A model generated the notes under the pieces. It was not told the origin of the DNA. It saw only the letters and a list, made by a program, of their open reading frames with translations, and made no database searches. From an uncultured Verrucomicrobia subdivision 3 bacterium (GTDB lineage: Bacteria; Verrucomicrobiota; Verrucomicrobiia; Limisphaerales; UBA11358), in contig CAINLR010000001.1 of NCBI GenBank assembly GCA_903850425.1, positions 1 to 64,000 on the forward strand: a stretch of 64,000 nucleotides of DNA, in the 5' to 3' direction. Both the position numbers and the translations under genes were made by a program. Below are positions 3,995 through 37,830 of this stretch, one piece after another. The first letter of the stretch is position 1, and the number at the start of each line of letters is the position of its first letter.

Positions 3995-4109
3995 ATTGTG
4001 TTTTGATTGGGACGGCAAAGCCAACTCTCCCGCCGTTCAGGATGGCAACGCCTCGCTAATTTTTGGTCGGTCTGGCTGGTTTTAAGATTACTCTCACTCG
4101 CCAAAACGT

Positions 4110-4174
4110 CATGTGGCATGAAATGGCCACAGCTTGGAACGACGGGCGGCGGTGTGGCCAATTCATGCCACGTG
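4110..4174 (+). promoter_or_regulatory. Two operator-like dyads upstream of the glycan-degradation cluster
   Basis: Two related 20-bp dyads sit at 4112-4131 (TGTGGC-N8-GCCACA) and 4153-4172 (TGTGGC-N8-GCCACG). They are also inverted relative to each other: 22 bases at 4110-4131 match the reverse complement of 4153-4174 at about 20 positions. Their centres are 41 bp apart, near four helical turns, and they lie about 140-200 bp upstream of the first gene of the cluster. The arrangement fits a dimeric repressor or activator binding twice, but a hairpin is possible. Confidence 0.55.
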
Positions 4175-4314
4175 TGGTGGGTGATAGGCTTGGCTATGCT
4201 CCGCTAAATCATTGGCCAATCGTGCGTAGTCGAGTAGTGCCATTCTGCCCACGGGTCGGCGCTTTTCAGACTTTCCCCGCGCGGGGCCAGTGTCGTCTAT
4301 TGGATACTATCTTT

Positions 4315-6861
4315 ATGAAAAAATTCGCTCTGCTCGCTGCCACCGCATTGGTGGCGGCCACTAGTGTCGCGCAAACATTCCGCCCGCCGGCGGTGCCGCT
4401 GGTGACCTTCGATCCATTCCTGAGCATCTGGTCGGGAGCCGATCGTTTGACCGATCGCGCCACGCAGCACTGGACGCGGCGCGAACATTCACTGGTGAGT
4501 TTGATCCGCGTGGATGGCCAGGCCTATCGCCTCATAGGCAACGAACCGAGCGATGTGGCTCCATTGCCCCAAATAGGGCTGACCGTAACACCCACCCGCA
4601 GCATCTATGAATTTGAAGGCGCGAACATCCACGTCACGCTGACCTTCATGACGCCGGCGTTGCCGCAGGATTTGGACGCGCTGGCGTTGCCGCTGAGTTA
4701 TCTTACCTGGCAGGTGCGGGCGGTGGATGGCCAGAGTCACAGCATTTCGCTCTATGACAGCACTAGTTCACAACTCGCGGTTAACAAACCTGGCGAAGGA
4801 GTAGAGTGGGCTCGCGCCAAGGCCGGTAGTCTTACCACTCTTCGCATTGGCACGGTCGAACAAGCGGTCGTCAGTTCTTCCGGTGATGATCATCGTATCA
4901 ATTGGGGCTATGCCTATGCTGCCGCTCCCGCCGGCCAATCCAGCGCTGCGATTGGCGCGAGCCGGACGTTGCTCGGTGCGTTTGTGGCCCGCGGGGAACT
5001 GCCCGCTGCCGCCGACCTGCGGATGCCGCGCCCCGCCAACGACGAGCAGCCGGTGATGGCGTTTGTGTTTGATCTCGGCAAGGTCGCCACCGCGCCGGTG
5101 ACGCGTCAAGTGATCGTCGCCTACGACGAAATTTACGCGATCAAATATTTTGGGCAGAAGTTGCTGCCGTATTGGAAACGCAATGGCGCCACCGCCTCGA
5201 GCCTGTTGCCGAAAGCCTCCCGCGACTACGCCAAGCTCGCCGAACGCTGCGCCAAGTTTGATGCTGAATTGACCGCCGACGCGACGAAAGCCGGCGGCGC
5301 TAAATACGCGCAAATGTGCGCCTTGGCATATCGTCAATGTGTCGCCGCCTGCGGACTCGCCGCCGATGCGAACAAACAGCCGCTGTTCTTCACGAAGGAA
5401 AACAGCAGCAACGGCGACATTGCCACCGTGGACGTCTTCTTCCCGATGGACCCGCAATGGGTATTGCTCAGTCCCACGTTGGCGAAAGCCACGCTTGTGC
5501 CGATCTTGAGCTACGCCTCCTCGTGGCATTGGAAATTTCCGAACGCCCCACATGACTTGGGCACTTACCCGATTGCGCGCGGCACGGACGACGGCGGCGA
5601 AGGAATGCCGGTCGAAGAGAGTGGCAACATGCTTATACTCTGCGATGCCGTCTCGCAAATTCAGGGTGATTCCAAGTGGCTGAATCCTTGGTGGCCGAAG
5701 CTGACGCAGTGGGCGAAGTATCTCGAAAAATACGGCCTCGATCCCGAAGAACAACTTTGCACGGACGACTTCATGGGCCATCTCGCGCACAACGCCAATC
5801 TCTCTGTGAAGGCTATTCTGGGTCTCGCCGCTTATGGCGACTTGTGCCGGATGCGGGGCGACCAGGTGAATGCCGAGAAATATAAGCAACTCGCGCGAGT
5901 GGACGCGACGCATTGGGTGAAAGTCGCGGCCGATGGCGACCATTTTCGTCTGGCATTCGACAAGGCCGGCACCTGGAGCCAGAAATACAATTTGGTTTGG
6001 GATCGCATTCTCGGGCTGAATATTTTCCCGACGTCCGTCGCCCAAATAGAAGTGGCGCATTACCTGAAAATGATGCAGCGCTATGGTGTCCCGCTGGATT
6101 CACGCACGCATTTGACGAAGACCGACTGGTCTTTCTGGAGTGCCACCTTGGCTGACCACCAAGCGGACTTTGAAGCGATCGTCGCCCCGACCTATGACTA
6201 TCTCAATGCCACGACCGCGCGCTTGCCGTTCGTAGATTCTTACGAAACAGATAACCTCAAGAGCGGCGGTATGCGCGCCCGGCCCGTCATCGGCGGGGTG
6301 TTTATCAAGATGCTCGCCGATCGCGCGATGTGGAAGAAGTGGGCCAGCGCCGACAAAGTGAAAGTGGGCAATTGGGCTCCGTTGCCGGAAACCCCAAAAG
6401 TCACGGTGGTAATTCCCACTTCGCAGACGAATCCGGTTACGTGGCGCTACACGACCCAGAGACCGGCGGATCATTGGGCCGCCGTGGACTTCGATGCCAG
6501 CGCGTGGGCCGAAGGGGCAGGGAGCTTTGCGACGCGCGGCACGCCCGGTGCCGTGGAACACACGCGCTGGAATACCAGCGACATCTGGCTGCGCCGCGAG
6601 TTTACGCTGCCAGAAAAGAGTTATCCCAATCTTCAGTTTTATACTTGCCACGATGAGGATGTGGAGATTTACGTCAACGGTCTCTTGGCTTCGAGTGAAA
6701 GCGGTTTCACTTCCAGCTATACCGCGTTGGAGATTGCCCCGCACGCCCTGGAACTGCTCAAGCCCGGCGCGAAAATCCTCGTAGCCGTGCATTGCCATCA
6801 GACCGAAGGCGGACAAAATATTGACGTCGGCCTGGTAAACGTTGAGCCTTTGAAGAAATAG
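4315..6861 (+). CDS. DUF4965/glutaminase-A-like secreted protein with C-terminal jelly-roll domain
   Basis: The 848-residue protein starts at MKKFALLAAT, which gives a clean signal peptide ending near VAQT; longer upstream starts lie in the operator region. The body has the DUF5127, DUF4965 and DUF1793 order of the fungal glutaminase A (GtaA) family. Visible pieces are RPPAVPLVTFDPFLSIWS at the N-terminus, YDEIYAIKYFGQKLLPYW in the middle, and SWHWKFPNAPHDLGTYP followed by MPVEESGNMLI. About 130 C-terminal residues (DIWLRREFTLPE, then EDVEIYVNG) form a galactose-binding-like domain. Bacterial members sit in glycan loci and their substrate is uncertain. It is first in a cluster; the next gene starts 10 bases on. 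Confidence 0.85.
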   Translation: MKKFALLAATALVAATSVAQTFRPPAVPLVTFDPFLSIWSGADRLTDRATQHWTRREHSLVSLIRVDGQAYRLIGNEPSDVAPLPQIGLTVTPTRSIYEFEGANIHVTLTFMTPALPQDLDALALPLSYLTWQVRAVDGQSHSISLYDSTSSQLAVNKPGEGVEWARAKAGSLTTLRIGTVEQAVVSSSGDDHRINWGYAYAAAPAGQSSAAIGASRTLLGAFVARGELPAAADLRMPRPANDEQPVMAFVFDLGKVATAPVTRQVIVAYDEIYAIKYFGQKLLPYWKRNGATASSLLPKASRDYAKLAERCAKFDAELTADATKAGGAKYAQMCALAYRQCVAACGLAADANKQPLFFTKENSSNGDIATVDVFFPMDPQWVLLSPTLAKATLVPILSYASSWHWKFPNAPHDLGTYPIARGTDDGGEGMPVEESGNMLILCDAVSQIQGDSKWLNPWWPKLTQWAKYLEKYGLDPEEQLCTDDFMGHLAHNANLSVKAILGLAAYGDLCRMRGDQVNAEKYKQLARVDATHWVKVAADGDHFRLAFDKAGTWSQKYNLVWDRILGLNIFPTSVAQIEVAHYLKMMQRYGVPLDSRTHLTKTDWSFWSATLADHQADFEAIVAPTYDYLNATTARLPFVDSYETDNLKSGGMRARPVIGGVFIKMLADRAMWKKWASADKVKVGNWAPLPETPKVTVVIPTSQTNPVTWRYTTQRPADHWAAVDFDASAWAEGAGSFATRGTPGAVEHTRWNTSDIWLRREFTLPEKSYPNLQFYTCHDEDVEIYVNGLLASSESGFTSSYTALEIAPHALELLKPGAKILVAVHCHQTEGGQNIDVGLVNVEPLKK

Positions 6862-6871
6862 TCTCAACTCT

Positions 6872-8917
<2,046 letters not shown>

Positions 8918-8965
8918 GTATCGATTAAATCAAGTGTTCATAAAAACGGCGGCGGGCGTCCGTAG

Positions 8966-9018
8966 TCCAGGACGCTGGCGCGACATGGCGTCGCCACGCG
9001 TGCGCGCAGCGTCCTGGA
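8966..9018. repeat. Intergenic palindromic element (12-bp perfect arms)
   Basis: TCCAGGACGCTG at 8966-8977 is perfectly inverted as CAGCGTCCTGGA at 9007-9018, with a 29-base GC-rich spacer. It lies between the esterase gene and the GH92 gene, directly before a shorter hairpin with a T-run. The shape is that of REP-like extragenic palindromes. No second copy was found in this window. Confidence 0.7.
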
Positions 9019-9021
9019 GTG

Positions 9022-9041
9022 CGCCAGTCCTCTGGCGTTTT
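9022..9041 (+). terminator. Hairpin plus T-run after the esterase gene
   Basis: CGCCAG (9022-9027), loop TCCT and CTGGCG (9032-9037) are followed by TTTT. It is a short candidate intrinsic terminator about 105 bases after the esterase stop and 74 bases before the GH92 gene. If active, the cluster would be two transcripts or be attenuated here. Confidence 0.5.
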
Positions 9042-9114
9042 GTGGTGGGTGAGCGTCCGCACAGCCAGCGCTTGAGATAGAATGTTCTGATTGTGTTAAG
9101 AACCGTTTTGACTT

Positions 9115-11481
9115 ATGAAATCTACCGAAGCCAATTGCACAATGATAAAACAACCAAGACTGTCGCGGCATTTCTTGAACTCGTTGCTGGCACTGCTCCT
9201 CACTGGCGCACTGACCAGCTTTGCCGCCGAGCCATCCTTGGTCTCGCTGGTGAATCCTTTGCAGGGCACCGACTCGAAGCCGAGCTTCTCCCACGGCAAC
9301 GAGTATCCCGCCATCTGCCTGCCGTTCCCGATGAACACTTGGGCGCCCTACACGCAGCCGGAGCGCGACTCTTTCTATTACCAGTATCGCCAGCCGAAAC
9401 TTCGCGGCATCCGCCAAACGCATCAGCCTAGTCCGTGGATTGGTGACTATGCGGCCTTTTCGCTCATGCCCGTCTCTGGCAAGCTGGCGGTGACTGAAAG
9501 CGAACGCGCCTCGGACTTTCGCCACGAAGACGAAGTCGTCCAGCCGAGTTACTACCGCGTGCGGATGGATACTTGGAAGGCTAGCGCCGAAGTGACGCCG
9601 ACCGCGCGCTGTGCGCGCTACCGCTTTACCTACGAAGAAGCAGGCAACGCCTATGTGGTGCTCGACGCGTTTCCGGGCGGTTCCACGGTGGAAATTATTC
9701 CCGGCGAAAATAAGGTCGTCGGCACTACGCGTTACAATCATGGCGGCGTGCCGGACAACTTCTCCAATTACTTCGTCATCGTTTTCGACCAGCCTTTTCA
9801 AGGCCAAGGCGTGTGGTCACCGGAAGGCGTCCAAGCCGACAAGACGCAACTCGCCGGCAAGCACGTTGGGGCTTATCTGAAGTTCGAGGCCAAAGCCGGG
9901 GCCGTGATTGGCTGTAAAGTAGCTTCCTCATTTATCAGCCCGGAGCAAGCTCTGCGAAACCTGAAGCAGGAAATTGGCGCGGCTGACTTCGACACGATCC
10001 GCGGTCGCGCGGAGAAAGCCTGGAACGAAGCCCTGGGCCGCGCGAAAGTCGAAGGCGCTTTGGAGGATCAGCGACGCACCTTCTACAGCGCACTCTATCG
10101 GAGCATCGTCTATCCCCATCGCTTCTACGAACTCGGTGCCGATGGCAAACCGACTTACTTTAGTCCCTACGATGGGAAGATCCATTCGGGCGTGCTCTAC
10201 ACCGACACCGGTTACTGGGACACCTTTCGCGCGGCGCATCCACTTTACAATTTGCTCTTTCCCGAAATCAGCGCGGAGATTTTGCAGGGCGTTCTCAACG
10301 CCTACAATGAGAGCGGCTGGCTGCCCGAGTGGGCGAGTCCCGGTCATCGCAGCTGCATGATCGGCAATCACGCCTTCTCGCTGCTGGCAGATGGCTGGGT
10401 CAAAGGCATCCGCTCCTTTGATGCGGATAAAGCTGTCGCCGCCATGCTGCACGACGCCAACACACAAGGGCCGGATGCCTGCCGCTCCATCGGCCGCGAC
10501 GGCGCGGAGTATTACAACAAACTCGGCTATGTGCCGTATTCGTTCGCCAAGAACGAACCCAAAGTTCACGAAGGCACCGCCAAGTCGCTCGAATACTCCT
10601 ACGATGACTTCTGCGCGGCAGTGCTGGCGCGCGTGGCCGGTCGCACGGCGGATGCAGTTACTTTCGCTAAAAAGGCGATGTATTACACGAATCTCTTCGA
10701 CACGAAAACCGGTTTCATGCGCAGCCGCAAAGTGGATGGCTCGTGGAACGAACCGTTTGATCCGACCGAGTGGGGCGGACCCTTCACCGAAGGCAGCTCT
10801 TGGCACTGGACATGGAGCGTGTTTCAAGACGTGCCGGGATTAGTCAGCTTGATGGGCGGTGACAAGGCCTTTGCGGCCAAACTGGATGAAGTATTCACCG
10901 CGCCGAATACTTTCAAGCCGGGCACTTATGGTGGTCCAATTCATGAGATGACGGAAATGGCTGCGCTTGACCTTGGCCAATATGCCCACGCCAACGAACC
11001 GATTCAGCACATGATTTACCTCTACGACTACGCCGGCCAGCCGTGGAAGGCGCAATCACGCACGCGGCTTGTTATGAACAAGCTTTACCAAGCCGCACCT
11101 GATGGGCTGTGTGGCGATGAAGATACCGGCCAGACTTCTGCGTGGTATGTGTTCAGCGCACTCGGATTCTATCCCGTGTGTCCGGGAACACCGGAGTATT
11201 TGATCGGCAGTCCATTGTTTGATCGAGCCACGCTTACACTCTCGCCGGGCAAAACCTTGACCATTACGGCGCGCAACAATGGCCAGCAGCATCCTTACAT
11301 TCACGGAGCAACCCTGAACGGAAAGGAGTTTAACAAGGTTTACCTGACTCATGAGGAACTGTCGGCGGGCGGAGAATTAATCTTCGACATGGATAACGCC
11401 CCGAATACCCAGTGGGGATCAGCGCCCGAAGCACGCCCTGCTTCCGCCATGTCTCGGTTGAATTCACCCGCCGCGAAATAA
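9115..11481 (+). CDS. GH92 family alpha-mannosidase
   Basis: The 788-residue protein is a calcium-dependent exo-acting alpha-mannosidase by family. The signal peptide runs to about LTSFAAE; a second Met at codon 10 is an alternative start. The N-terminal beta-sandwich begins SLVSLVNPLQGTDSKPSFSHG, the form in which GH92 proteins start. The catalytic (alpha/alpha)6 barrel carries DTGYWDTFRAAHPLYNLL, ESGWLPEWASPGH and GDEDTGQTSAWYVFSALGF, the family signatures. It is 14 bases upstream of the next gene. GH92 members attack alpha-1,2, -1,3, -1,4 or -1,6 linkages; which one cannot be read here. Confidence 0.95.
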   Translation: MKSTEANCTMIKQPRLSRHFLNSLLALLLTGALTSFAAEPSLVSLVNPLQGTDSKPSFSHGNEYPAICLPFPMNTWAPYTQPERDSFYYQYRQPKLRGIRQTHQPSPWIGDYAAFSLMPVSGKLAVTESERASDFRHEDEVVQPSYYRVRMDTWKASAEVTPTARCARYRFTYEEAGNAYVVLDAFPGGSTVEIIPGENKVVGTTRYNHGGVPDNFSNYFVIVFDQPFQGQGVWSPEGVQADKTQLAGKHVGAYLKFEAKAGAVIGCKVASSFISPEQALRNLKQEIGAADFDTIRGRAEKAWNEALGRAKVEGALEDQRRTFYSALYRSIVYPHRFYELGADGKPTYFSPYDGKIHSGVLYTDTGYWDTFRAAHPLYNLLFPEISAEILQGVLNAYNESGWLPEWASPGHRSCMIGNHAFSLLADGWVKGIRSFDADKAVAAMLHDANTQGPDACRSIGRDGAEYYNKLGYVPYSFAKNEPKVHEGTAKSLEYSYDDFCAAVLARVAGRTADAVTFAKKAMYYTNLFDTKTGFMRSRKVDGSWNEPFDPTEWGGPFTEGSSWHWTWSVFQDVPGLVSLMGGDKAFAAKLDEVFTAPNTFKPGTYGGPIHEMTEMAALDLGQYAHANEPIQHMIYLYDYAGQPWKAQSRTRLVMNKLYQAAPDGLCGDEDTGQTSAWYVFSALGFYPVCPGTPEYLIGSPLFDRATLTLSPGKTLTITARNNGQQHPYIHGATLNGKEFNKVYLTHEELSAGGELIFDMDNAPNTQWGSAPEARPASAMSRLNSPAAK

Positions 11482-11495
11482 TCCAGCCTAGCCTG

Positions 11496-13673
11496 ATGAA
11501 ATCACTTTTGCCGCTATTCGCGCTGGTGGCCGGCGCGGGTGCCAATTTACTGGCTGCGGAAGGCCCGCTAAGCTTCGCCAACGATGCCGATCGGTTGTTG
11601 GAACGCACCTGTTTCCAAACCGGCGCGCCGTGGGCCGAAAAATATAGTCTGCGTTCGGATGTTGCCATCGTTTACGGCATTGATCCGAAACTGCCTGAAC
11701 GCATCGCGACCTGGCGTGAGCACGGCTACCGCATTCATCTCATGACCGGCGTGTCTTGGGGCCAATACCAGGATTATCTTTACGGACGTTTCGACGGCAT
11801 CAATCACGAGGATGAAGCGCAGACGCTGCGCAGCGGTGAAAAGCGCAGCCACGGCGGCGATGTCTATTACATGTGCCCCGGCACGAACTACGGAAAATTT
11901 CTGTGCGTTGGCGTGCAACGCGCCTTGGATGCTGGCGTGGAAGCGGTTCATCTAGAAGAGCCGGAATTCTGGGTGAACACCGGTTACTCCGAAGGTTTCA
12001 AACGCGAATGGAAAGCCTTTTACGGCGACGACTGGCAGCCGCCGCATAGTTCGGCGGCTGCACAGTGGCGCGCCTCCAAACTGAAATATTTTCTCTACCG
12101 CCGCGCGTTGCAGCAGGTCTTTGACTATATCCAAGCCTACAACCAGCGCACCGGCCGGCAGGTCCGGTGTTACGTTCCCACTCATAGTCTGATCAACTAC
12201 GCGCAATGGAGCATAGTCAGTCCCGAGTCTAGTCTGGCGCGGCTCAAGGGTTGCGATGGCTACATTGCGCAAGTCTGGACGGGCACCTCGCGCACGCCGA
12301 ATGTCTATCGCGGCAAATACAAGGAGCGCACTTTTGAAACCGCCTTTCTGGAATATGGCGCAATGCAAAACCTGGTGCGTGCCACCGGCCGTTCCGTCTG
12401 GTATTTGAATGATCCCATCGAGGACAATCCGGAGCACGACTGGAATGATTATCAGCACAATTGGGAATCCACGCTGACGGCTTCTTTATTCCAGCCCGAC
12501 GTCTGGCAATATGAAGTCGCGCCGTGGCCGGAACGTATTTTCAATGGTCGCTATCCGAGGTCGCTGCCACGCGAACAACGTCAGTCCATCCCGCCCGGAT
12601 ACGCCACGGAATTGCAGACGGTGATGAGCGCGCTCAACGACATGAAACAGAAGCGCGTCGAGTGGGACTGCGGCACAACGGGCATCGGCGTCATGATCGG
12701 CGATTCGCTGATGTTCGAGCGCGCCGGGCCGTCTCCGAGCGATCCGCATCTGGGCCACATCTTTGGATTAGCGATGCCGTTGCTGAAGCACGGAATTCCC
12801 GTCGCACCCGTGCAATTGGAAAACGTCACGGCGCCACACTATCTCGACTCTTTCAAAGTATTGCTCCTCACATATCAAGGCATGAAACCGTTGACGCCGG
12901 AGGTTCACACCCAGCTTGCTAACTGGGTCAAGCAAGGTGGCCACCTGATTTTCTGTGATGACGACTCCGATGCTTTCAACGCGGTGCCGGAGTGGTGGAA
13001 TAGCAACGGGAACAAGTTCGCCAATCCGCGCGCACATCTCTTTGCCCAGCTTGGTTTCAACGCTGCGAAGCATTTTGCCGCAACAAAACCCACTTGGAAA
13101 TTTGGCCAAGGTGAAGTCGTTTGGCTCCGCGAGAATCCGGCCATACTCGCCGGCAGCGCGGACGGCGCTGAGCAAGTTATTGCTGCGGTTAAAGCGGTCG
13201 CCGAATCGGCAAAGCTGGATTGGAGCGAGACCAGTTCGCTGCTGCTGCGCCGTGGTCCATACCTCATCGCCGCTGGTTTGGATGAATCCATCGCCGGCGA
13301 ACCCAAGACGATTCACGGTCACTTCGTGAATCTGTTCGATCCCGAGTTGCGGGTGTTGGAGAGCGTGAAGTTCGTTCCCGGCAGCCGCTTCTTTCTGCGC
13401 GATCTGGACACTGACCATGACCGTGCGCCGAAACTGCTCGCCTCGGCCTGCAAAGCGATGCCGATCAAGTCGCAGGATAAGTCTCTGTCTTACCTCGTCG
13501 AAGGCGTGGCTGAGACTCCGGCCGTGCTGTTGTTCCATGTTTCCACCGCGCCCAAATCCGTCACGCTCGATGGGCAGACCGTTGACCATGTTGATTTCTC
13601 AAAGCCGGATGGCCTCTTATGGATTCGCTTCGCCAATGAAGCCCGGCCACGAACTTTGGCGCTGCATTTTTGA
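11496..13673 (+). CDS. Secreted glycosidase-like protein of unassigned family
   Basis: The 725-residue protein starts at MKSLLPLFALVAG, 14 bases after the GH92 stop, giving a signal peptide ending near LLAAE. Residues about 40-360 look like a TIM-barrel hydrolase: HGYRIHLMTGVSWGQYQDY early, then AVHLEEPEFW, where a Glu follows a hydrophobic strand as in a catalytic acid. Residues about 430-520 resemble the glutamine-amidotransferase-like domain that follows the barrel in GH42-type enzymes (PHYLDSFKVLLLTYQGMKPL, NWVKQGGHLIFCDDDSD). A beta-rich end follows. I cannot place it in a named family. Its cluster position argues for a role in glycan breakdown. Confidence 0.7.
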   Translation: MKSLLPLFALVAGAGANLLAAEGPLSFANDADRLLERTCFQTGAPWAEKYSLRSDVAIVYGIDPKLPERIATWREHGYRIHLMTGVSWGQYQDYLYGRFDGINHEDEAQTLRSGEKRSHGGDVYYMCPGTNYGKFLCVGVQRALDAGVEAVHLEEPEFWVNTGYSEGFKREWKAFYGDDWQPPHSSAAAQWRASKLKYFLYRRALQQVFDYIQAYNQRTGRQVRCYVPTHSLINYAQWSIVSPESSLARLKGCDGYIAQVWTGTSRTPNVYRGKYKERTFETAFLEYGAMQNLVRATGRSVWYLNDPIEDNPEHDWNDYQHNWESTLTASLFQPDVWQYEVAPWPERIFNGRYPRSLPREQRQSIPPGYATELQTVMSALNDMKQKRVEWDCGTTGIGVMIGDSLMFERAGPSPSDPHLGHIFGLAMPLLKHGIPVAPVQLENVTAPHYLDSFKVLLLTYQGMKPLTPEVHTQLANWVKQGGHLIFCDDDSDAFNAVPEWWNSNGNKFANPRAHLFAQLGFNAAKHFAATKPTWKFGQGEVVWLRENPAILAGSADGAEQVIAAVKAVAESAKLDWSETSSLLLRRGPYLIAAGLDESIAGEPKTIHGHFVNLFDPELRVLESVKFVPGSRFFLRDLDTDHDRAPKLLASACKAMPIKSQDKSLSYLVEGVAETPAVLLFHVSTAPKSVTLDGQTVDHVDFSKPDGLLWIRFANEARPRTLALHF

Positions 13674-13705
13674 ATCATCTGTTCACCCTGTTGAAATAGC
13701 CATAC

Positions 13706-15316
13706 ATGAATTCACCTTTGATTTTTTTGCGCGGTTTAGCGAAGCCGATTTGCGTCACGTTGGCGCTGTCCAGCTTGATGGTTATTGGTTCAGTGGGCAA
13801 CGCTGCCACCCAAGTCACTTACCAAAATCCCGTCATTGCCGGGGATCATCCGGATCCCTCCATCATTCGCGTCGGCAAAGAATACTGGGCCTCCTCCACG
13901 GCATCCGCGTGGGGACCGCTGTTCCCGCTGCTGCGTTCCACCGATCTGGTGAACTGGGATTTGACCGGAGCGGTTTTGCCGCGCCGACCAGACTGGGCCA
14001 CCGGCGATTTTTGGGCGCCGGAAATTTCCGAATTCAAAGGTCGCTACTATGTCTATTACGTCGCGCGCCGACGCGGCGGCCCGCTGTCCGTGGCGGTGGC
14101 GACTGCGGACAAACCGGGTGGACCTTACACCGATCACGGCCCGCTCGTGGGGCAGGAGGATGGTTCGATTGACCCTTTTCCAGTCACGGATACCAATGGC
14201 CTCCGCTATCTCGTGTGGAAGGAAGACGGCAACAGCCGCAATAAATCCACGCCGATTTGGGCGCAGCGCCTGAACGACGATGGCACCAAGCTGGTCGGCG
14301 AAATGCACGAATTGATCCGCAACAACACTGATTGGGAAGGCGGTCTGGTGGAAGGCCCGTGCATCATTCGTCGCGACGACTGGTTCTATCTCTTCTATTC
14401 CGGCAACGGTTGCTGCGGCACTGGTTGCAACTATGCGCTCGGCGTGGCGCGCTCGCGCTCGCTGCTTGGACCTTGGGAAAAGAATCCGCTGAATCCAATT
14501 CTTGCCGCCAACGAAACCTGGAAATGCCCCGGCCATGGCACCGTGGTGACTGATCCAAGTGGCCGCTACTGGCTCCTATATCATGCCTATCCGGCCAGCG
14601 ATTCTATTTTCATCGGCCGCGAAGCGATGCTGGATGAAGTCAAGTTCGGCCTGGATGGCTGGCCAACGATCAACGCCGGCAATGGTCCGAGCCAGCAATC
14701 CGCTTCACCTTTTGGCGTCGCGCAAAAAGTTTTCGGTGGCAGTTATGCCGATGATTTCAACGGCAAGAATTTGGAGAGCGGCTGGCAATGGCCGCAGCAT
14801 CACGCGCCGCTCACGCAGTTGAAGAACGGCCAATTGCGATTGTCCGGCGGTGGAAGCGCAACCAATTTCCTCGCCGCCGTGCTGGCGCGGTTGGTCACGG
14901 TCGCCGATTATGTGGCGACAACCGTGATCCAAACCAAGCCACTGCAGCCGGGTGTGGCGGCGGGCCTCTGCGCGTTTGGAGATTCCGATAATGCGCTCGG
15001 TGCCGCTTTCAGCTATGGCCGCATCGTCACCTGGCGGCGCGACAAGGGAGTGACCCGCCAACTTTCGGAACAACCCGCGCCTGCCGCGACTCGGCTTTAT
15101 CTGCGTTTGACCGCACGTCATGGTTACCGCTTCCAGTTCGCCGTGAGCGCCGATGGCAAGAGGTGGACGCCTTGTGGCGAAGCCGCCGATGCCAAAGAAC
15201 TGCCGCCGTGGGATCGCACCGTGCGCGTGGCTCTGACCGTTGGCGGCGTTCCCGACGCCGAAGGAATTTTCGATTCGTTTTCCATCAAACCTTTTGAGCC
15301 CCCAACGGTGAAATGA
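13706..15316 (+). CDS. GH43 family glycosidase with C-terminal beta-sandwich
   Basis: The 536-residue secreted protein has a signal peptide to about NAATQ. It then shows the five-bladed propeller landmarks of GH43: NPVIAGDHPDPSII with catalytic base Asp50, DGSIDPFPVTD with the pKa-modulating Asp, and GLVEGPCII with the acid Glu. The family holds beta-xylosidases, arabinofuranosidases and galactosidases, and specificity cannot be told from this. About 190 C-terminal residues (from ADDFNGKNLESGWQW) form a beta-sandwich like the one following many GH43 domains. The next gene starts 4 bases after the stop, so they are translated from one message. Confidence 0.93.
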   Translation: MNSPLIFLRGLAKPICVTLALSSLMVIGSVGNAATQVTYQNPVIAGDHPDPSIIRVGKEYWASSTASAWGPLFPLLRSTDLVNWDLTGAVLPRRPDWATGDFWAPEISEFKGRYYVYYVARRRGGPLSVAVATADKPGGPYTDHGPLVGQEDGSIDPFPVTDTNGLRYLVWKEDGNSRNKSTPIWAQRLNDDGTKLVGEMHELIRNNTDWEGGLVEGPCIIRRDDWFYLFYSGNGCCGTGCNYALGVARSRSLLGPWEKNPLNPILAANETWKCPGHGTVVTDPSGRYWLLYHAYPASDSIFIGREAMLDEVKFGLDGWPTINAGNGPSQQSASPFGVAQKVFGGSYADDFNGKNLESGWQWPQHHAPLTQLKNGQLRLSGGGSATNFLAAVLARLVTVADYVATTVIQTKPLQPGVAAGLCAFGDSDNALGAAFSYGRIVTWRRDKGVTRQLSEQPAPAATRLYLRLTARHGYRFQFAVSADGKRWTPCGEAADAKELPPWDRTVRVALTVGGVPDAEGIFDSFSIKPFEPPTVK

Positions 15317-15320
15317 AAAT

Positions 15321-15860
15321 ATGAAGAAATTAAATCTGTTGCTGGCGGTGCTGGCTCTTGGTCTGGGCAATCTCCGCGCCCTGGCTGCAGACGCGCCGGC
15401 CAAATCCAATCAGGCTCCCGAGGCCACTACCTACCAGATCCGTAACGTGAAGCATCAGGACTTGCTCCGGCCTCGAGATGCCAACAACGCCAACGGCACG
15501 CCCATCGTTTTATACTCCGCGCAACCGTGGAAGTGCATGACATGGCGGTTGCAGCCGGCGGGCGATGCGACGTTTCAATTGAAAAATCTTTTCACTGCCA
15601 AAACCTTTTGCGCCGCGACCAATACCACCGCAGTCCAGCAAGTGCCGCTGGCGAAAGAGCGTGGCGTATCGCCCGCCTGGAGGTTCATCAAGCTGGCGGA
15701 CGGCACCTATGAAATCACTGACAGCAAATCCGGCCAGGCGTTGACGGCGGTGAAAGAGCAGGGAGGATACGAAGTGAAAATCGAGGTCGCGCCCTGGCAG
15801 AACTCCGACGAGCAGAAATGGCAACTCGAAAAAATGGATCCGCAACAACTGACGATGTGA
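15321..15860 (+). CDS. Secreted ricin-type beta-trefoil-like protein
   Basis: The 179-residue protein has a signal peptide ending near LAADA. The rest is one beta-trefoil-like unit: YQIRNVKHQDLLRPRDANN, then WRLQPAGDATFQLKNLFTAK, YEITDSKSGQALTAV and EQKWQLEKMDP. The QxW-like ends match ricin B/CBM13 or RICIN_14-like repeats that bind sugars. It is the last gene of the cluster, 4 bases after the GH43 gene, so it probably binds substrate or product. The repeats are diverged and binding is inferred only. Confidence 0.65.
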   Translation: MKKLNLLLAVLALGLGNLRALAADAPAKSNQAPEATTYQIRNVKHQDLLRPRDANNANGTPIVLYSAQPWKCMTWRLQPAGDATFQLKNLFTAKTFCAATNTTAVQQVPLAKERGVSPAWRFIKLADGTYEITDSKSGQALTAVKEQGGYEVKIEVAPWQNSDEQKWQLEKMDPQQLTM

Positions 15861-23376: not shown

Positions 23377-26300
23377 TCATTGCTGTAACCGGTAAAATTG
23401 CTGCGGCACTCTGGCGGCCGAATTAGTGACCGTCCAGTTATTTGTTGCAAAGTAGGGCGGGTTGGTCACCAGCGCCCAGGCCGGCGGCGCAAGGCTCGGA
23501 GTTGAATAGAGATTGAAGGCACCCATGTTGTTGGTCCAAACCAGCGAAATCGTCTTAGCCGACACATTCGGGCTGAATTGCAACTTGGGCGACGTCACGT
23601 TAAATGGAGTCTGGGTAAAAAGGTTGTTGATGCCGAAATTGCCCCAAGAATTGATCGGATTATTCACGTTGACCCTAGAGTTGGTAACACCCGTCCAAGC
23701 GTAGCAGCCAATGATTTCGGACAACTTGCCGGGAATACCCGGGCTGGCAGAATTGAACGGCACGATATAGTAAGAGGAGCTGTTGCCCTCGAACCCGCAG
23801 TTGATGAGGTGCAGCACGCCGCCATCCACCCTGATGCCATAGGTGCTGAGATAGCCCATGTGAACTAGTTCAAATCCCACGTCGCCGCCTTGAATCCAAT
23901 AGTCCCAGGTTCGCCCGCCCCACAACGGCGCGTTAAAAAACCGCGCCGTGCCTTGAAAAGTCGGCGTGCTGATGACGCCATAGTTGTTGGTGATGTCCGG
24001 GTAGCCCCCGGTGGTAGTGACCATCCATTCCGGGTTCACGATGTTGATCTGACAGGGAGCGGCGGCTTCAAAGAGAAAACAATTCACGGCAGCATCGGAC
24101 TCGGTGATAATGCCGTTGATCCATGGCCCGCGGCCGTTCTGGTCAACACAGTGCATGAAAATGTGGGAGGGAATATCGAAGTTCTTCACCAGCAGTTCGG
24201 TGCAATCGCCCAGCAGAAACCACTCTTGGTTGTGCCTGACATAGGAATCAATGGGGGTCCGCCACGCCGCAACATCCTGGCTGGCTGAAAAATTACTGTC
24301 CCACCAGTAAGTCACATTAGCCATGCACTGGACCAGCGTGCCGCAGGAGCCGTTGCCGATCGTAAAGCCGTATCGTAATGCCCAACCATCCACCTGTTGC
24401 AGGAAATGGTTAGTGCAGGCGTAGGTATTCAAATCCACATACCAATAGGGATTGGCACAGAGCACGCCGATGGCATAGATATTTTCGCCACGCCCTTGGA
24501 TGGTGGGCGGATACGGCGTGCAATTAGTATCCTGCAAATCGTAGTGGATGGTCATGCCCACGATACCCGCGTTGGCTTCCAGTGCGACCGCCGGCGGGCC
24601 GTTCGTTGTGCCCGCTCCACCGTAAGGTTGCAGCAAGGTCATTTTGACGTGGCCGTCATACAGCGGCGCTGAATGAACCGACGGGATTGACCCGCGCAGC
24701 TCAACGCCGCTGGGCACGTCGAGCGTGCTGGTTAACTTATATTTTCCGGCGGGCAGATAGACGATGCCGCCGCCGTTCGTGCTGGCGGCATTCAAGGCGC
24801 TTTGGATAGCCGCCGTGTCATCTGCCACGCCGTCACCCACCGCGCCCCAGCTAGGATTTGTCGCCACAAACAAATCCAGCTTGGCCGGTCGCCGCGCAAC
24901 CCAGTTGGTCTGGATGTCCGACCAATGGACTACGGGCAAGGGACTGGTGCTGGCACGCCGGCCATCTATGACCAGCCGCCGCGCATCTGCCGCGTTGCTG
25001 ATGGTTCGGGTGGGGTTGAAATTGCAGCCCGTGAAAGCCGCATAAATCGCCCCGGAAGCCATGGTGCATTGATTGCTGCCCGCAGGAACGGTCAAAGTGG
25101 AGTTGACCACGTTGACAATGCCGCCGTCTACTTTGACCGTGCCGGCGAGGTTGCAGTTCTGCAATTGCATCGTCGAGGAAGAGCCGCCGGTCTGGCACAA
25201 AGCCGTGCCGTTGCGGCCCGTCAACTGGCAGGAGTGGAAATAGAGCGAGGCGTCGTTGGGAGTGCTGGTGCGATCCACCGCGATGTCCCCGTCCAAGGTG
25301 ATCCGGGTGAACTCAATCCCGGTATTGCCGCCGCCCGCGTCATCCAGATAGGCTGTGGCGCAATTGCTGATGTAGCCGCCGTAAAACGAGACGTTCGGTC
25401 CGCCATTGGTGCTCACCGCACCCCACACTCCGACATGATAACCGCTTAGGTTAGCATCCATGATCGCTTCCCCATCGCCGCGATAGAGCAACTCCGCCGT
25501 GCCGTTGGCGCGCATCCAGGCCGCGTGCGGGCCGCCCACTGGTGGCGCGCCGGGAAGTTTCGACGCGGGCCAAAAGTCCGGAGAGAAACGAACATTCTCC
25601 TGATGACTGATGTCATACTGTGCATCCAAAGTAATCCCGACATAGAGCGGCGAACCAATGACGGTGGAAAGGACGTGTTTTGAGGCAGTGCTGCTGATGC
25701 CTAGGTAGGAATTGATCAACGCCACGTCCTGCACCAGGGTATCATTGCCGACGACCAGCGTGAAGGGATACGGCGCGATGCTCGCCGGATTCTGGTTCGG
25801 ATACCAAATGGAGACGCCCTTCAACGCCGCCCTGGGGAGCGTAATGAAGGGCGTGCCGTTGCTCTGGCCGGCACCGGCATAGACTTTGAAGAGCGTGCCG
25901 ACGACGCCATTTGTCCCTTGCGACCAATCCGTCCAATCACCATGCAGCGTCACGCCGTTAGGAATCGTCAGCGTGTTGGAGAAGCAATAGGTCCCCGCCG
26001 GCACATAGACCACGCCGCCGCCAAAACCGCCCGAGTTATAGACCGCGTTCATCGCGTTCTGAAACGCCGCCGTGTCGTCCGTCACGCCGTCCCCCGTCGC
26101 GCCATATTGCTGCGGTGTCGCCAGCGCCACAACAATCTCATTGGTGTTGTGTGGCGGCACAATGACCGTTGGCCCGGAGACATAAATAAAATAAACCGCC
26201 TGACTGACTGGATCATCAATAACTGCGAGACCAGACGGAACATTGCCAGGAACAAATCTCCCAGCTCCGCTCCGCGTGCCAGAGTATTTCAGCAGCACGC

Positions 26301-28770
26301 CACTCCCGCGACTGGCGTTGGTGATGTTCACCGAGACATTACCGTTCATCGTCAGATTGCCGAAGACGTTGATGAGCGGTGCAGCGGAATTGGCTGCGTT
26401 AGCAACATCAAAGGACAGTTGCGCCGCACCGCCGAAAGTCAGGTTGTTCATGGGCAGCGAAGTTCCTGCGCCGCCCAACTCCACGCTCAAATTGCCGCCC
26501 ATGTTAGAGTAGGACATGGCCGCAGTTGTTCCCGTCGTGACCGCGAGCGTCGCGTTGCTGATGGTCGTGCCGCCGCTGTAGGAATTATTCGGCGCAGCCA
26601 GCGTCACGGTGCCGCTGCCGGCCACGGTCAAAGAGGATGGAAAGATATTGTCCGCCAGCACGGCATTGATGACGAGGCCTGGGGCAAATCCGCTGTTGTT
26701 CACCAGGGTCAAACTGCCGCCCATAGTGCCGGCAGTCAGCACGCCGCTGCCCGGTGATGCGCCGATGGTTAGCGATGCCAGACCCGCATTAATCGCCACC
26801 TGGTTCACTTGCAATGTTTTGCCCGTCGTGTTCACCGTCGCGGCGATAGTGGTGTTTTGTTGCAGGCTGTTGATAGCCGTTGTCGCGGAACCCAACTGGA
26901 TGTTGCCACCGGTGCCGGTGAAGTTGATGCGGACGTTGCTGGAAGGCGCGTTGGTAATTGTCGAGCCAAGTGCGGCAATGTCCACATAAGCCGACGCGCC
27001 TTGCAAGCCATTGGTCACATCATAAACCGCCGGGTCGCCATTTACTGTGATCCAACTGCCGAGCGTCGGCGGAGTGGTGAAGAAAATCCTATTCTGGCTG
27101 GTGCCGGCACTTCCCATCTGAAAGTTCACCGAGCCGCCGTTGTGAACCAACGAACTGAAAGTCAGCGTCGAAGAATTTCCGCTGGCGGCGGGATAAGCTG
27201 TTACTGTATTGATGCCGGAGTTGACGATGAGCGGTCCCGCCGTCTCGCTGAGATTCGCCGCGCTGCCATCGTTGGCGAAAGTAAAAACACCAGTATTCAA
27301 AGTAATCGGAGCAGTGTTGCTAACGCGATTGTTAAGATTGACGGTGGCACTGTTCATCAACATGAGCTTGCTGCCATTGGTCAGCGCAAACCCGCTGCTG
27401 TTCGCAGCGCTGCCGTTACCAGTCAGAAGAACTGTTCCAGCATTAATGGCAATCACGCCGGTGTAAGTATTCGCGCCGAACAGTGTCAGTGTGCCGCCGC
27501 CGGTTTTCGTCAACCCGCCCACGCCCGACAGCGCACCGGACAGTGAAATGTCATTGCTAAAACCGTTAATATCCGCTGCCTGGAAAGTAATATTGCCGCC
27601 GAGGTTGGTCAGGACCATAGCCATCGAGGACGACCAATCCGCCGAGGCACCCACGATGCCGCCGGATAGTGTGACGATGTCGGTGGGATGCGAATTAGAT
27701 TCGACAATGCCGCCTGCGCCTAGGTAAAGACTGCCGCCCGTCACTGTCAACGTGGCGCTACCGCCGCTGTAGCTGCCCGAAGCCGCGCCAAATTGAATGC
27801 CCTGAACATTTGCAGTTCCACCCGAGATAGTCATCGTCGCGGTCTGGCCGCTTGCGGAGCCGCTGGTCATAAGATTGATCAGGCTCGCGATTTCGATTGC
27901 GCCGACGTTCAACGTGCCGCCCCGCACATTCAACGTCGCGTGGTTGTTACCGTTGGCATCCGCCGCGGCAAGATTGAGCGATCGGGCGGAAGTGGTGCCA
28001 ATGTTCGCCGTGCCGTTTTGGATGTTTAAGGTGCCGGATTGTCCGCTCCGCCCGATGGTCAGGTCTCCGTTGTTCATCGTCAACGAGGCCGCAGTCCCAT
28101 TCAAGTTGTAAACGCCCGGCCCGCCGGAATAGCCGATGAACGAATAAGCCGTCGGCGCCACGGTCCCGCCGGTCTGGTTCACGGTGGTGTTCGCCCAGAA
28201 AATCGAAGGTGTGTGGGTGCCACTGTTGAGATTGAGATTACCACTGCCCTGCCATCTTACCTGCATACCCTGAATGTTGCCCACGACATTAAGGGTTGAG
28301 CCTGAATTCACGGTCCAAAACTGGGCGATGTTGTTGCCATAGATGGTGCAGTTGATAGCCGCAGTCTGGTTGGCCGCAACGGTGATCGCACCGTTGTTGG
28401 GCAGAGTAAGCGTGCCATTGATCAGGGTGTAACCCGAATTGGTGAAGGTCACCGAGTTGGCCGAGACGGTGCCGACCGAGATGGAGTAAGTGCCGTTCGT
28501 CCCGGCACCAAACACCGCGTCATCAGGGGGCGCACCACTCCACGTGCCGCTGACGTTGCCGACCCCGTTCCACCAATTATTGGTGGTCAGCCACGAACCG
28601 CTGCCATCGGCCGGGTTGGGTGCGCTGGTGCCATTCGCATCCCAAGTTAAAACAGCTGGGCGGGCCATTGGAACGAAGATTAGCACCAACGCCAGCACCA
28701 CCGCTTCGCAAAGCCTGCGCAACTGACAGCGGCAAACTCCGCCTGAGACATTTGTGCTATTCACGTTCAT
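23377..28770 (-). CDS. Giant secreted protein: beta-strand repeats plus two pectate-lyase-like beta-helix domains
   Basis: The 1797-residue protein has a signal peptide ending near ARPAVL. Residues about 40-880 are autotransporter-associated beta-strand repeats (LTKTGGGTLTLFGANTYTG and many NxGTLN/GGT units), the kind that forms long adhesin passengers. Two Pectate_lyase_3-type beta-helix domains follow: one opens TPQQYGATGDGVTDDTAAFQ and one opens NPSWGAVGDGVADDTAAIQ, each with VYVPAGxY-like turns. The C-terminus ends in a short beta-sandwich (SLVWTNNMGAFNLYSTPS...FYRLQQ). No outer-membrane barrel is seen, so it may be free or held by an unknown anchor. It may bind or cut polysaccharide. Confidence 0.88.
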   Translation of the reverse strand: MNVNSTNVSGGVCRCQLRRLCEAVVLALVLIFVPMARPAVLTWDANGTSAPNPADGSGSWLTTNNWWNGVGNVSGTWSGAPPDDAVFGAGTNGTYSISVGTVSANSVTFTNSGYTLINGTLTLPNNGAITVAANQTAAINCTIYGNNIAQFWTVNSGSTLNVVGNIQGMQVRWQGSGNLNLNSGTHTPSIFWANTTVNQTGGTVAPTAYSFIGYSGGPGVYNLNGTAASLTMNNGDLTIGRSGQSGTLNIQNGTANIGTTSARSLNLAAADANGNNHATLNVRGGTLNVGAIEIASLINLMTSGSASGQTATMTISGGTANVQGIQFGAASGSYSGGSATLTVTGGSLYLGAGGIVESNSHPTDIVTLSGGIVGASADWSSSMAMVLTNLGGNITFQAADINGFSNDISLSGALSGVGGLTKTGGGTLTLFGANTYTGVIAINAGTVLLTGNGSAANSSGFALTNGSKLMLMNSATVNLNNRVSNTAPITLNTGVFTFANDGSAANLSETAGPLIVNSGINTVTAYPAASGNSSTLTFSSLVHNGGSVNFQMGSAGTSQNRIFFTTPPTLGSWITVNGDPAVYDVTNGLQGASAYVDIAALGSTITNAPSSNVRINFTGTGGNIQLGSATTAINSLQQNTTIAATVNTTGKTLQVNQVAINAGLASLTIGASPGSGVLTAGTMGGSLTLVNNSGFAPGLVINAVLADNIFPSSLTVAGSGTVTLAAPNNSYSGGTTISNATLAVTTGTTAAMSYSNMGGNLSVELGGAGTSLPMNNLTFGGAAQLSFDVANAANSAAPLINVFGNLTMNGNVSVNITNASRGSGVLLKYSGTRSGAGRFVPGNVPSGLAVIDDPVSQAVYFIYVSGPTVIVPPHNTNEIVVALATPQQYGATGDGVTDDTAAFQNAMNAVYNSGGFGGGVVYVPAGTYCFSNTLTIPNGVTLHGDWTDWSQGTNGVVGTLFKVYAGAGQSNGTPFITLPRAALKGVSIWYPNQNPASIAPYPFTLVVGNDTLVQDVALINSYLGISSTASKHVLSTVIGSPLYVGITLDAQYDISHQENVRFSPDFWPASKLPGAPPVGGPHAAWMRANGTAELLYRGDGEAIMDANLSGYHVGVWGAVSTNGGPNVSFYGGYISNCATAYLDDAGGGNTGIEFTRITLDGDIAVDRTSTPNDASLYFHSCQLTGRNGTALCQTGGSSSTMQLQNCNLAGTVKVDGGIVNVVNSTLTVPAGSNQCTMASGAIYAAFTGCNFNPTRTISNAADARRLVIDGRRASTSPLPVVHWSDIQTNWVARRPAKLDLFVATNPSWGAVGDGVADDTAAIQSALNAASTNGGGIVYLPAGKYKLTSTLDVPSGVELRGSIPSVHSAPLYDGHVKMTLLQPYGGAGTTNGPPAVALEANAGIVGMTIHYDLQDTNCTPYPPTIQGRGENIYAIGVLCANPYWYVDLNTYACTNHFLQQVDGWALRYGFTIGNGSCGTLVQCMANVTYWWDSNFSASQDVAAWRTPIDSYVRHNQEWFLLGDCTELLVKNFDIPSHIFMHCVDQNGRGPWINGIITESDAAVNCFLFEAAAPCQINIVNPEWMVTTTGGYPDITNNYGVISTPTFQGTARFFNAPLWGGRTWDYWIQGGDVGFELVHMGYLSTYGIRVDGGVLHLINCGFEGNSSSYYIVPFNSASPGIPGKLSEIIGCYAWTGVTNSRVNVNNPINSWGNFGINNLFTQTPFNVTSPKLQFSPNVSAKTISLVWTNNMGAFNLYSTPSLAPPAWALVTNPPYFATNNWTVTNSAARVPQQFYRLQQ

Positions 28771-28842
28771 TCAAGTTTATTCATCAACCATTTGGTCAAT
28801 AATCGCATCGTTGGCTTTCCTTCACACTTTATTTATGCAAAT

Positions 28843-28876
28843 CGGCGCGGGTGGCCACGCTGACCACACCGCGCCG
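28843..28876 (-). terminator. GC-rich hairpin between the two giant genes
   Basis: CGGCGCGG (28843-28850) pairs with CCGCGCCG (28869-28876), and TGG/CCA extends the stem with small internal offsets. It lies 27 bases after the stop at 28903 of the upstream minus-strand gene and about 73 bases before the start of the next. No long T-run follows, so termination is only possible. Bases 28771-28842 otherwise hold no feature. Confidence 0.4.
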
Positions 28877-28902
28877 ACGTAACTAACCCCATTAAACTTA
28901 TA

Positions 28903-31900
28903 TTACGGATGCATCATTCGGTAGAACACCGCGCCGTTGGCGGGATTGATGGTGAGGTTCGTGCTGGTCACGAGATCGGAACCGGGCACGGTAAACCACG
29001 CGGCGCCATTGGGCATCAAGCCGGTATTCAGCGCATTGGTCTGGCTTTGCAGAATCCAGCCTGCGTTCGTGGGCCAGGATAACGAGAGTGTGCCGCCACT
29101 GACAGAGACCGCAATCGTGCCCGGCAGCGGATTGATCGTCACCGGCGGAACAACCTCCAAGCTGCCAGAGCCAGCGAGATACAACGGATCGGTGGTTGCG
29201 TTATAAACACCCGCCGGCTTGCTCACTCCACCCAAGACTAGGGCGGCCACAATGTTGGTTCCATTATCGCTGAAGTTCAAATTCAGAACTCCGTTGGTGC
29301 CAAGCGTCGCATTGGTATTGACCGTCACAATCGAGTTGGTTGCCAGGAATTCGCCGTTAATAATCAAGGTGCCGTCGCTGACCGTGGTGTGGCCAGTGTA
29401 ACTGTTAGTGGTGCCCAACAGATTCACAACACCCAGCCCCGTTTTCACCAATGAACCCGCGCCGGTGATATTGCCGTTAATATCCAGCTCCGCATCCGCG
29501 GACGGCACATCAAACGTGTTCATGCCCGCAAGTCCGATGACCAGTCCACTAGGGGTGGTCGGGATGGTCAGTGTGGCGGGAAAGCCTAACGTCAGACTAT
29601 TGCGCAACACACCGTTAGTCATGGCAATCTGGCTGATCGTCTGGCTATTACCGTTCAAATCCAGAACGCCACCACTACTTAGTTTGCACGGAACGGGATA
29701 TGTGCCAGGCGCGCCCGCCGGCATGAATTGACTTGCAAAGCCGGTTATCTTGGCCACCGCGTTGGATTGCACGAGCAGACCATAGGTGGCACCTCCCGTC
29801 CCAATGGAGGCACCACTGGAAGAACCGAGATCCAACTCACCTTGATTGACACTTCCAATGAATGAACCGCTGCCGGTCAAAGCCAGCGTGCCTGCTCCAA
29901 TTTTAGCTGCCTGGCTATTTCCGCACACAATCCCATTGAAACTCAGAGCGTTGCTCACCACATTAAAGACCGCTGGGCCGGCAATAACACCTTGCGCCGG
30001 GAGACTCAAACTGTTGGAGATGCCCAGATAGGTAACCGTCGCCGACGGAAGCCCAATAGTCCCGGTAATTCCGGTCACCGCCAAATCCCCTCCGCTGAGA
30101 TTGTCCAGGGTGGCGGAGGCATTGAAGTTGAAAACACCATTACCCAAACAATTCGCCGTTTTTAGATTTAGCTGACCACCATCAACCGTCAAACCGCCGG
30201 TGAAGGAGTTGTCAGTTCCCAGCGTCAAGGTGCCATTGCCAGCCTTTTCAAGCCTGTAAATGTTCCCGCCGTCAGAGATAGCGCCGTCCACTTCGAGCGT
30301 ATTGCTAACTACCGTCAACACCACGACGCTGCTGCCCAGAGTGATCGCGCCAGCGCCGGTATTGAGGTTGGTGCTGCCGACAAAGGTCCAATCGTCCAGC
30401 CAATTTTGCGCAATGATGGGTTGCAGGGTGACACTCTGGCCGCTGGTATTGTCAATTTTCGAACCCAAAGCCAACGTGAGTGGGCCGGTGCCGATGGCGG
30501 AATTGGCCGCGCTGTTACCTCCGTTGTTGAGGTTCAACTGGCCGCCCGAGATCGAGGTGCCACCCGAGTAGGTGTTCGTTCCCGTCAGGGTCACCGTGCC
30601 ATTGCCGGCCTTGGTCAAACTGGCAACCCCGTCAATTGAGCCGCCATTGCCCGTGATCGTCCAGACATTCGTCCCCAGCACTGTGATCGCGTTGGGATTG
30701 ACCGCCGAAACATTGGTAACAATGATTGGGAAAGGTCCGCTGGCAGTATCGTCAAATTGCACCGCGTTGGGTTCGGTATAATTGATCGGGCTTCCAAACA
30801 GGCTCCAGTTTTGAGCGGGGATAAGCCCCCAATTGCCGCTGCCCACGCGCCAGGTCAGCGAAGCGCTCACCGGTGAACTGGTCACCACCAAAGCGATGAT
30901 CTTCGCGGCGACCTTGTTGGTAATGTAACCGGTCGTTGAGGCGGGCAACGAAATCGGCGTCGTCGGCAGGCTGCCAGTGACAGTGCCGCCGTATTTAATG
31001 AGCGGATAGGTGCCAACGGGGATGGAACTGCCCACAATGGTAATATCGGGCGTGACGGTGCAAACGACGTTGTTGGTAACTTGAATCGGAGCCACGGAGA
31101 AACTGGGTGGCAGCGCGCCAAAGTCAAAGTTCGCCGTCACCGTGCCAGCAGCATAGGTCAGGTTGCCATTGACGGCCATGAATTGCCCCGCACTGGCTGG
31201 CGCGACGCTCACGCTGGGCGAACCGGCCGAGCCATCCAAGGTAAGCGAACCATTGGTGGGAGATAAGAGCGGCACAATTTTCAAAATACCGTTACTGACC
31301 ACGGTGCTGCCTTCATAATTATTGGCCCCGCTCAAGGTCAGCGTGCCACCGCCGGTTTTGTAAAGTCCGCCGGGGCCGGTGAGCGCACCGGAAAGTCCAA
31401 TGTTGAAAGGCGCAGCACTGTCATCCGCGCATTGGAACGTGATGTTGCCATTCAGCATGTCCAGTTGCAGCGGAACCGTTGAGATCCAACTTTGCAGCGC
31501 TCCCACGGTGCCGCCGGATAATACGAAATAGTTGGTGGGAGAGAAAACCGCCAGGCGGCTGATACCGATGGAACCAACGTTGCCGATATAGAGGAAGCCC
31601 CCGGAATTGGTAAAGGCGATCGTGCTCACAACGTTAAAGGTCCCGCTGGCCGCTCCGATGGCAATTCCGCCCCAGGCTTTGATCGTGCCACCGGATTGTG
31701 AAAAGATCGCCCGGGAATTTGTCCCAGCGCCAGTTCTGGCTAACGCAATTGATCCCGCGCCGCTGGAATTTCCCACGTTCAAAGTGCCCCCTTGCATAAA
31801 GAATGAACCCTGGCCCCCGGCTGAGTTGTCATTCAACACCGAAACTATACCCAAGGCAGAGGCAATCATATTCACGGTTCCATTCTTGATGATCACCGTG

Positions 31901-37760: not shown

Positions 37761-37830
37761 AAGTTTCTATTGGCAACGGTTCAAGTTTGTGAATTGTCAG
37801 CCACCACAGGCACGCGGCTTAGTCGGTTCC

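Follow-up and report, generated by a model that had tools for sequence, protein, structure and literature searches.

The window, by which we mean the whole 64,000-nucleotide stretch of DNA that was analysed, carries a run of six plus-strand genes at 4063-15860. In order, these encode a GtaA-like protein with DUF4964, DUF5127 and a six-hairpin domain (4063-6861), a SASA-type carbohydrate esterase with a GH2-type sugar-binding domain (6872-8917), a member of the alpha-mannosidase family GH92 (9115-11481; PF07971, E 9.9e-172, and TIGR01180 over its cut-off), the candidate glycosidase considered here (11496-13673), a GH43 protein with a GH43_C2 domain (13706-15316; PF04616, E 1.5e-75) and a ricin-B-type lectin (15321-15860), the five neighbours being typed by Pfam. 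The position between GH92 and GH43 genes given in an earlier note, made from the sequence alone, is thus borne out by Pfam matches on both sides, with gaps of 14 bases from GH92 and 32 bases to GH43. The open reading frame of the candidate starts with an ATG at 11496 and encodes 725 residues, its stop codon ending at 13673, and since relatives are encoded at 76 loci it is a real gene. It is present as a single copy in its own genome. The N-terminus, MKSLLPLFALVAGAGANLLAAEG, resembles a signal peptide by eye, as the earlier note had claimed (residues 1-21, 11496-11558, plus strand); residues 1-23 have a pLDDT below 50 in the structural model described below.

Two other parts of the window, both on the minus strand, deserve mention. 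A second GH92 gene adjoins two sulfatases at 35577-40817; as GH92 and sulfatase are among the gene types of a sulfated-mannan cluster described in an excerpted source (PMC13063451), this is possibly another locus for a sulfated-mannose glycan. At 23377-32751 lie genes for two large proteins, of 1797 and 1282 amino acids, with passenger-associated-transport repeats, one of which also has pectate-lyase-like domains.

In sequence, the candidate family is not akin to any family of the libraries searched. Neither Pfam nor NCBIfam has a model that matches the window protein at cut-off; NCBIfam gives no match, and the best from Pfam is DUF4350 over residues 432-501 (E 0.006; 17.3 bits, the cut-off being 30.4). 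When 43 family members were scanned singly against Pfam, DUF4350 was matched by 17 (best E 3.2e-5) and a GlmA-like second domain by four (best E 0.0051), and the 14 Pfam families matched by any of them at E up to 1 include neither a glycosidase catalytic domain by name nor PF02449, the GH42 catalytic domain. Nor does PF02449 match the window protein up to an E of 10, with the HMMER filters applied, and no Pfam match there is named GH99 or GH195. Among PDB sequences, neither a phmmer search with the single sequence nor a search with a 43-sequence profile returns a sugar enzyme up to an E of 10, or any similarity to the GH164 enzyme Bs164, itself a PDB protein; matches to desmoplakin (E 0.89) and calpain-7 (E 0.12) were dismissed as chance. 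Aligned by hhalign with 17 GH42 proteins, the candidate family shows no profile-profile similarity (probability 1.1%). A search of viral proteins in BFVD gave nothing informative, and no description of this family was recognised among the matches listed from open-licence PMC papers. Three leads from such papers were set aside on the excerpted descriptions: GH195, from Polaribacter and distantly related to GH99 (PMC13063451), GH173, which is compared with GH5 and GH30 (PMC8810776), and an enzyme that belongs to GH35 (PMC11739564). The earlier statement that no known family fits the protein cleanly therefore holds for sequence profiles, whether from Pfam, NCBIfam or the scans of the 43 members.

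An AlphaFold2 model built from 43 sequences has a mean pLDDT of 90.4 and a pTM of 0.91, and consists of three domains. A TIM barrel at about residues 36-384 (11601-12647, by DSSP on the model) is followed by an amidotransferase-like middle domain of the GH42 trimerization type at about residues 388-575 (12657-13220, from the model, the full-length GH42 alignment and the weak DUF4350 match) and a C-terminal beta domain at about residues 581-725 (13236-13670, by DSSP on the model), all on the plus strand. The TIM-barrel-like and amidotransferase-like halves of the earlier note are both recovered by the model and by fold searches, the latter also, weakly, by the sub-threshold match to DUF4350. 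In a full-length Foldseek search of the PDB, Bs164 comes first (E 2.8e-13, TM 0.50/0.55, 8% identity) and GH42 enzymes appear from rank 10 (E 1.2e-12); ranks 44 and 45 are taken by the GH42 exo-carrageenase 6ptm and by GH167. Identity across the GH164 and GH42 full-length matches is 7-12%. VIA-align places the GH42 enzyme 4uoq (Z 21.4, rmsd 4.4, 532 residues) level with GH153 PgaB, which is aligned over the barrel alone (Z 21.1, 305 residues), and the barrels of GH42, GH153 and GH35 score Z of about 18-21. Folded alone, the barrel is modelled less confidently than in the full-length protein (pLDDT 81.8). With this isolated barrel GH191 leads the Foldseek matches, followed by mostly alpha-acting families, GH31, GH13 and GH20 being among the leading rows and GH42 being absent from the best 50, and VIA-align puts the GH42 enzyme 1kwg first (Z 21.4, 322 residues), tied with GH153. 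GH99 is not among the best 50 VIA-align matches of either the full-length protein or the isolated barrel.

The predicted fold thus has the barrel, trimerization domain and beta domain of GH42, by model and alignments, and the three-domain fold of GH164, by Foldseek. Bs164 (PDB 6T7G), an exo-beta-mannosidase, resembles the candidate in this architecture and in a Glu after barrel strand 4, and it acts on mannosides; it differs in sequence, with 7-9% identity and no profile match. The GH42 beta-galactosidases 1KWG and 4UOQ are alike over the whole length (Z 21.1-21.4, 510-532 residues), but are set apart by the hhalign result and by the Asp that the candidate has after strand 7. GH153, the C-terminal domain of PgaB, corresponds to the barrel only (Z 20.5-21.1 over 295-306 residues in isolated-domain chains), its matched chains of about 350 residues covering the barrel alone, at 5-7% identity. 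Excerpted sources describe the GH42-type architecture both in GH164 exo-beta-mannosidases (PMC7105311) and in GH5 exo-beta-mannosidases of a verrucomicrobial symbiont, the latter a precedent for this scaffold carrying a different sequence family (PMC8233224); the candidate, unlike the symbiont enzyme, has no Pfam match to GH5. Given the 7-12% identity and the GH42 profile probability of 1.1% together with the GH42/GH164-like fold, the model indicates that the family is distinct in sequence but built on a scaffold of the GH42/GH164 type. What is new here is accordingly a sequence family that Pfam and NCBIfam do not name, on a scaffold that is already known. Where the earlier note saw an unassigned family and a candidate for a new glycoside hydrolase family, the absence of any fitting profile, including any Pfam model at cut-off, stands, as do invariant carboxylates after strands 4 and 7 of a confidently predicted barrel; the architecture, by contrast, can be assigned, to the three-domain type of GH42 and GH164.

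In many TIM-barrel glycosidases the two catalytic residues follow barrel strands 4 and 7, and in clan GH-A an Asn precedes the strand-4 Glu and a Glu follows strand 7. Conservation in the candidate family was read from an alignment of 86 sequences, comprising the window's own, those from 71 of the 76 loci and 14 from further genomes; strand positions are those of DSSP on the model, with the barrel strands numbered by us. Residues invariant in all 86 include D55, H119, E155, H230, Q259, W261, D306, D310, W344 and R347, of which E155, H230, Q259, W261, D306, D310, W344 and R347 are located at or after barrel strands, and near-invariant positions are E154 and E340 (85/86), E157 and E286 (84/86) and E309 (80/86). 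The HLEEPEFW motif singled out in the earlier note is present at residues 152-159 (11949-11972) and contains Glu154, Glu155 and Glu157, following strand 4 (150-154). His230 (12183-12185) follows strand 5 (224-229), and a DPIED motif at residues 306-310 (12411-12425) follows strand 7 (300-304) and holds Asp306, Glu309 and Asp310. Judged by these strands, the places of the clan GH-A signature would be taken by Glu154-Glu155 and by Asp306. On the model, Asp306 in place of the strand-7 Glu would depart from the clan pattern, and an Asp at the nucleophile place of clan GH-A would be a mechanistic exception. The candidate Glu-Glu also differs from the Asn-Glu of GH42, which appears as DNE in two of the 17 GH42 proteins at hand. 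In the excerpted account of Bs164, the acid/base Glu160 and the nucleophile Glu297 are on strands 4 and 7 (PMC7105311). Because Glu155 and Asp306 are invariant after the same two strands, they are proposed to be the catalytic residues, an assignment that we regard as somewhat probable. Glu155 would act as proton donor (acid/base), and Asp306 as nucleophile if the enzyme is retaining or as base if it is inverting. Set beside the Glu/Glu pair of GH164 by strand position, E155 is invariant and the strand-7 side offers the invariant D306 and D310; E309, kept in 80 of 86 only, was dropped as nucleophile.

The 17 GH42 proteins, which come from the genus and the order of the window, present a peculiarity of their own. 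At what we take to be the acid/base position, 15 (L092 (G000:C176) and 14 other loci) have Ser, Gly, Ala or Asn and two have Glu (DNS against DNE), and all 17 retain Glu at the presumed nucleophile position; judging by these sequences, the 15 may be a GH42 branch with altered chemistry.

The 76 loci are on genome contigs titled Verrucomicrobiota, Planctomycetota, Armatimonadota (including Chthonomonas), Bacteroidota, Bacillota or just 'bacterium', with 36-77% identity over the best segment, and one member is in Bacteroides fragilis. Profile searches at E up to 1e-10 find the family in seven of 288 genomes of the window's phylum, counting its own; in a 148-genome sample of the family to which G308, source of a Paenibacillus locus, belongs, 56 match. 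Of 296 genomes sampled from the phylum of B. fragilis three match, one of them a weak partial match (E 4.9e-5) and another the B. fragilis genome around which the sample was centred. In a quick, midpoint-rooted tree of the 86 sequences, a single branch sets the labelled Bacillota to one side, and likewise the labelled Bacteroidota, and beside them lie L139 and L140, long and unsurely placed sequences of the window's phylum. The window protein groups with L001 and L002 and then L003, and clusters are partly kept among these close relatives, L001 having GtaA and GH43, and L003 SASA and GH92. A distant branch holds four long members (1565-1786 amino acids) from the Paenibacillus sample; of two that were scanned both have CBM9, one with SLH and the other with Big_2. 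A member of 1309 amino acids from the window's phylum (L138:3223-7149) has about 626 N-terminal residues without a Pfam match ahead of the family domain. Two copies of the gene occur per locus in the Bacteroidota MAG loci L056, L057 and L073, and the L073 genome has three.

Neighbours at the 76 loci, within at most 8 kb on each side and often less, were typed by BLAST with Pfam-typed representatives. GtaA was found at 31 loci, GH38 at 25, GxGYxYP at 18, GH92 and GH76 at 14 each and GH125 at six. At least one of GH38, GH92, GH76 and GH125 is present at 26 of 31 Bacillota and 12 of 15 Bacteroidota loci; the corresponding figures, with several contigs short, are two of 18 verrucomicrobial-type, none of seven Planctomycetota and none of five Armatimonadota loci, where groups follow record titles and two of the verrucomicrobial type are titled just 'bacterium'. 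The Bacillota and Bacteroidota counts are not independent, since each group occupies one side of one branch of the tree. Of six further loci from the window's phylum, L139 has GH92 and GtaA and the other five have none of the families probed. Genes scanned beside verrucomicrobial, planctomycete and armatimonadete copies include GH127, GH32 and GH125, and also unrelated ones (trimethylamine methyltransferase, sortilin-like repeats, chemotaxis and kinase genes). Most loci of Bacillota and of Bacteroidota, and the window itself, therefore have a mannosidase context, which is mostly missing in the window's own wider lineage. Where it occurs it can be tight: among the 16 Paenibacillaceae genomes whose copies score highest of the 56, 15 have a GH38 no more than 6 kb from the best copy, against 0.21 expected from GH38 counts, and in B. 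fragilis (L061) the order is GH76, family gene, GtaA, GH92, GH125 and aldose epimerase. GxGYxYP is linked to alpha-mannan-responsive clusters in an excerpted source (PMC4071793).

GtaA-like (DUF4964/DUF5127) genes are the commonest neighbours among those probed. According to an excerpted report, a Streptomyces protein of this type is a weak beta-galactosidase without detectable glutaminase activity, so that a reading of the neighbour as a plain glutaminase was dropped; by analogy with this homologue the partner family probably consists of glycosidases in alpha-mannan clusters rather than glutaminases (PMC9668830).

Collectively, these results make it very likely that the gene encodes a glycosidase. 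A binding or scaffold protein that keeps the glycosidase fold but has lost catalysis would agree with the inexact retention of the clan GH-A signature residues, but carboxylates, His, Trp and Arg at the strand ends do not vary in any of the 86 sequences, distant ones included, and we consider this reading highly improbable. Action on an alpha bond, whether by an alpha-mannosidase or by an endo-alpha-mannanase, with a mechanism like that of GH31 or GH191 and in concert with GH92, GH38 and GH76, has in its favour the alpha-mannosidases and mannanases among the neighbours and the isolated barrel, for which Foldseek puts GH191 at the top and several alpha-acting GH31 and GH13 enzymes lower down. 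It is nevertheless unlikely, as the full-length protein matches the beta-acting GH164 and GH42 first, and the invariant strand-4 residue is Glu155, unlike the Asp of GH31-type enzymes. Equally unlikely is it that the family is already in CAZy under a recent number that neither Pfam nor NCBIfam has modelled and for which no structure is solved. New CAZy families do appear often, but no relative is found among PDB sequences at E up to 10, the abstracts naming GH191, GH192 and GH194-GH197 show no candidate among the matches listed, and the one matching PLSDB record, NZ_CP045296.1, annotates the protein as a 'hypothetical protein'.

The reading that we prefer is that of a secreted glycoside hydrolase in which a catalytic barrel is combined with an amidotransferase-like domain that would mediate trimer formation and with a beta domain. 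The enzyme would be an exo-glycosidase on oligosaccharides of alpha-mannose-containing glycans, taking off a beta-linked sugar that the neighbouring alpha-mannosidases cannot remove. For the combination of secretion, GH42/GH164 build, exo action and release of such a sugar from these oligosaccharides we see about an even chance; cleavage of a beta-linked sugar on alpha-mannan glycans is itself a tentative proposal, and the specific sugar is a guess. Fungal galactomannan and glucuronoxylomannan are decorated alpha-mannans, and the GH43 and acetylesterase of the window would fit a substrate of this kind. Location may differ among members. A signal-like start is seen by eye in most verrucomicrobial and Bacteroidota copies, and 21 of 24 Paenibacillaceae copies, inspected where they match the motif and with start codons chosen mechanically, seem to be cytosolic because only 7-14 residues precede the conserved domain. 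Together with a nearby ABC permease, typed in L026 and with its BLAST cluster in 28 loci, these cytosolic-looking copies point to imported oligosaccharides. In Paenibacillus the substrate may instead be xanthan: as excerpted, a study of P. taichungensis describes a xanthan cluster with GH9, GH88 and PL8 plus GH38 and GH92, and a GH76 and GH125 cluster likely to serve alpha-1,6-mannan (PMC12827396).

It is conceivable, if doubtful, that the family founds a new class of glycoside hydrolase, with a strand-4 Glu-Glu dyad and, as nucleophile or base, a strand-7 Asp on the GH42/GH164 scaffold, directed at an unrecognised alpha-mannan-type linkage in Bacillota and Bacteroidota. The family is common, being found in 56 of 148 Paenibacillus-family genomes, and occurs in Bacteroides fragilis, yet it has no Pfam or NCBIfam name. 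If it contributes an activity so far missing from alpha-mannan clusters, it would shed light on how fungal or protein-linked mannose glycans are degraded to the end by bacteria of soil and gut.
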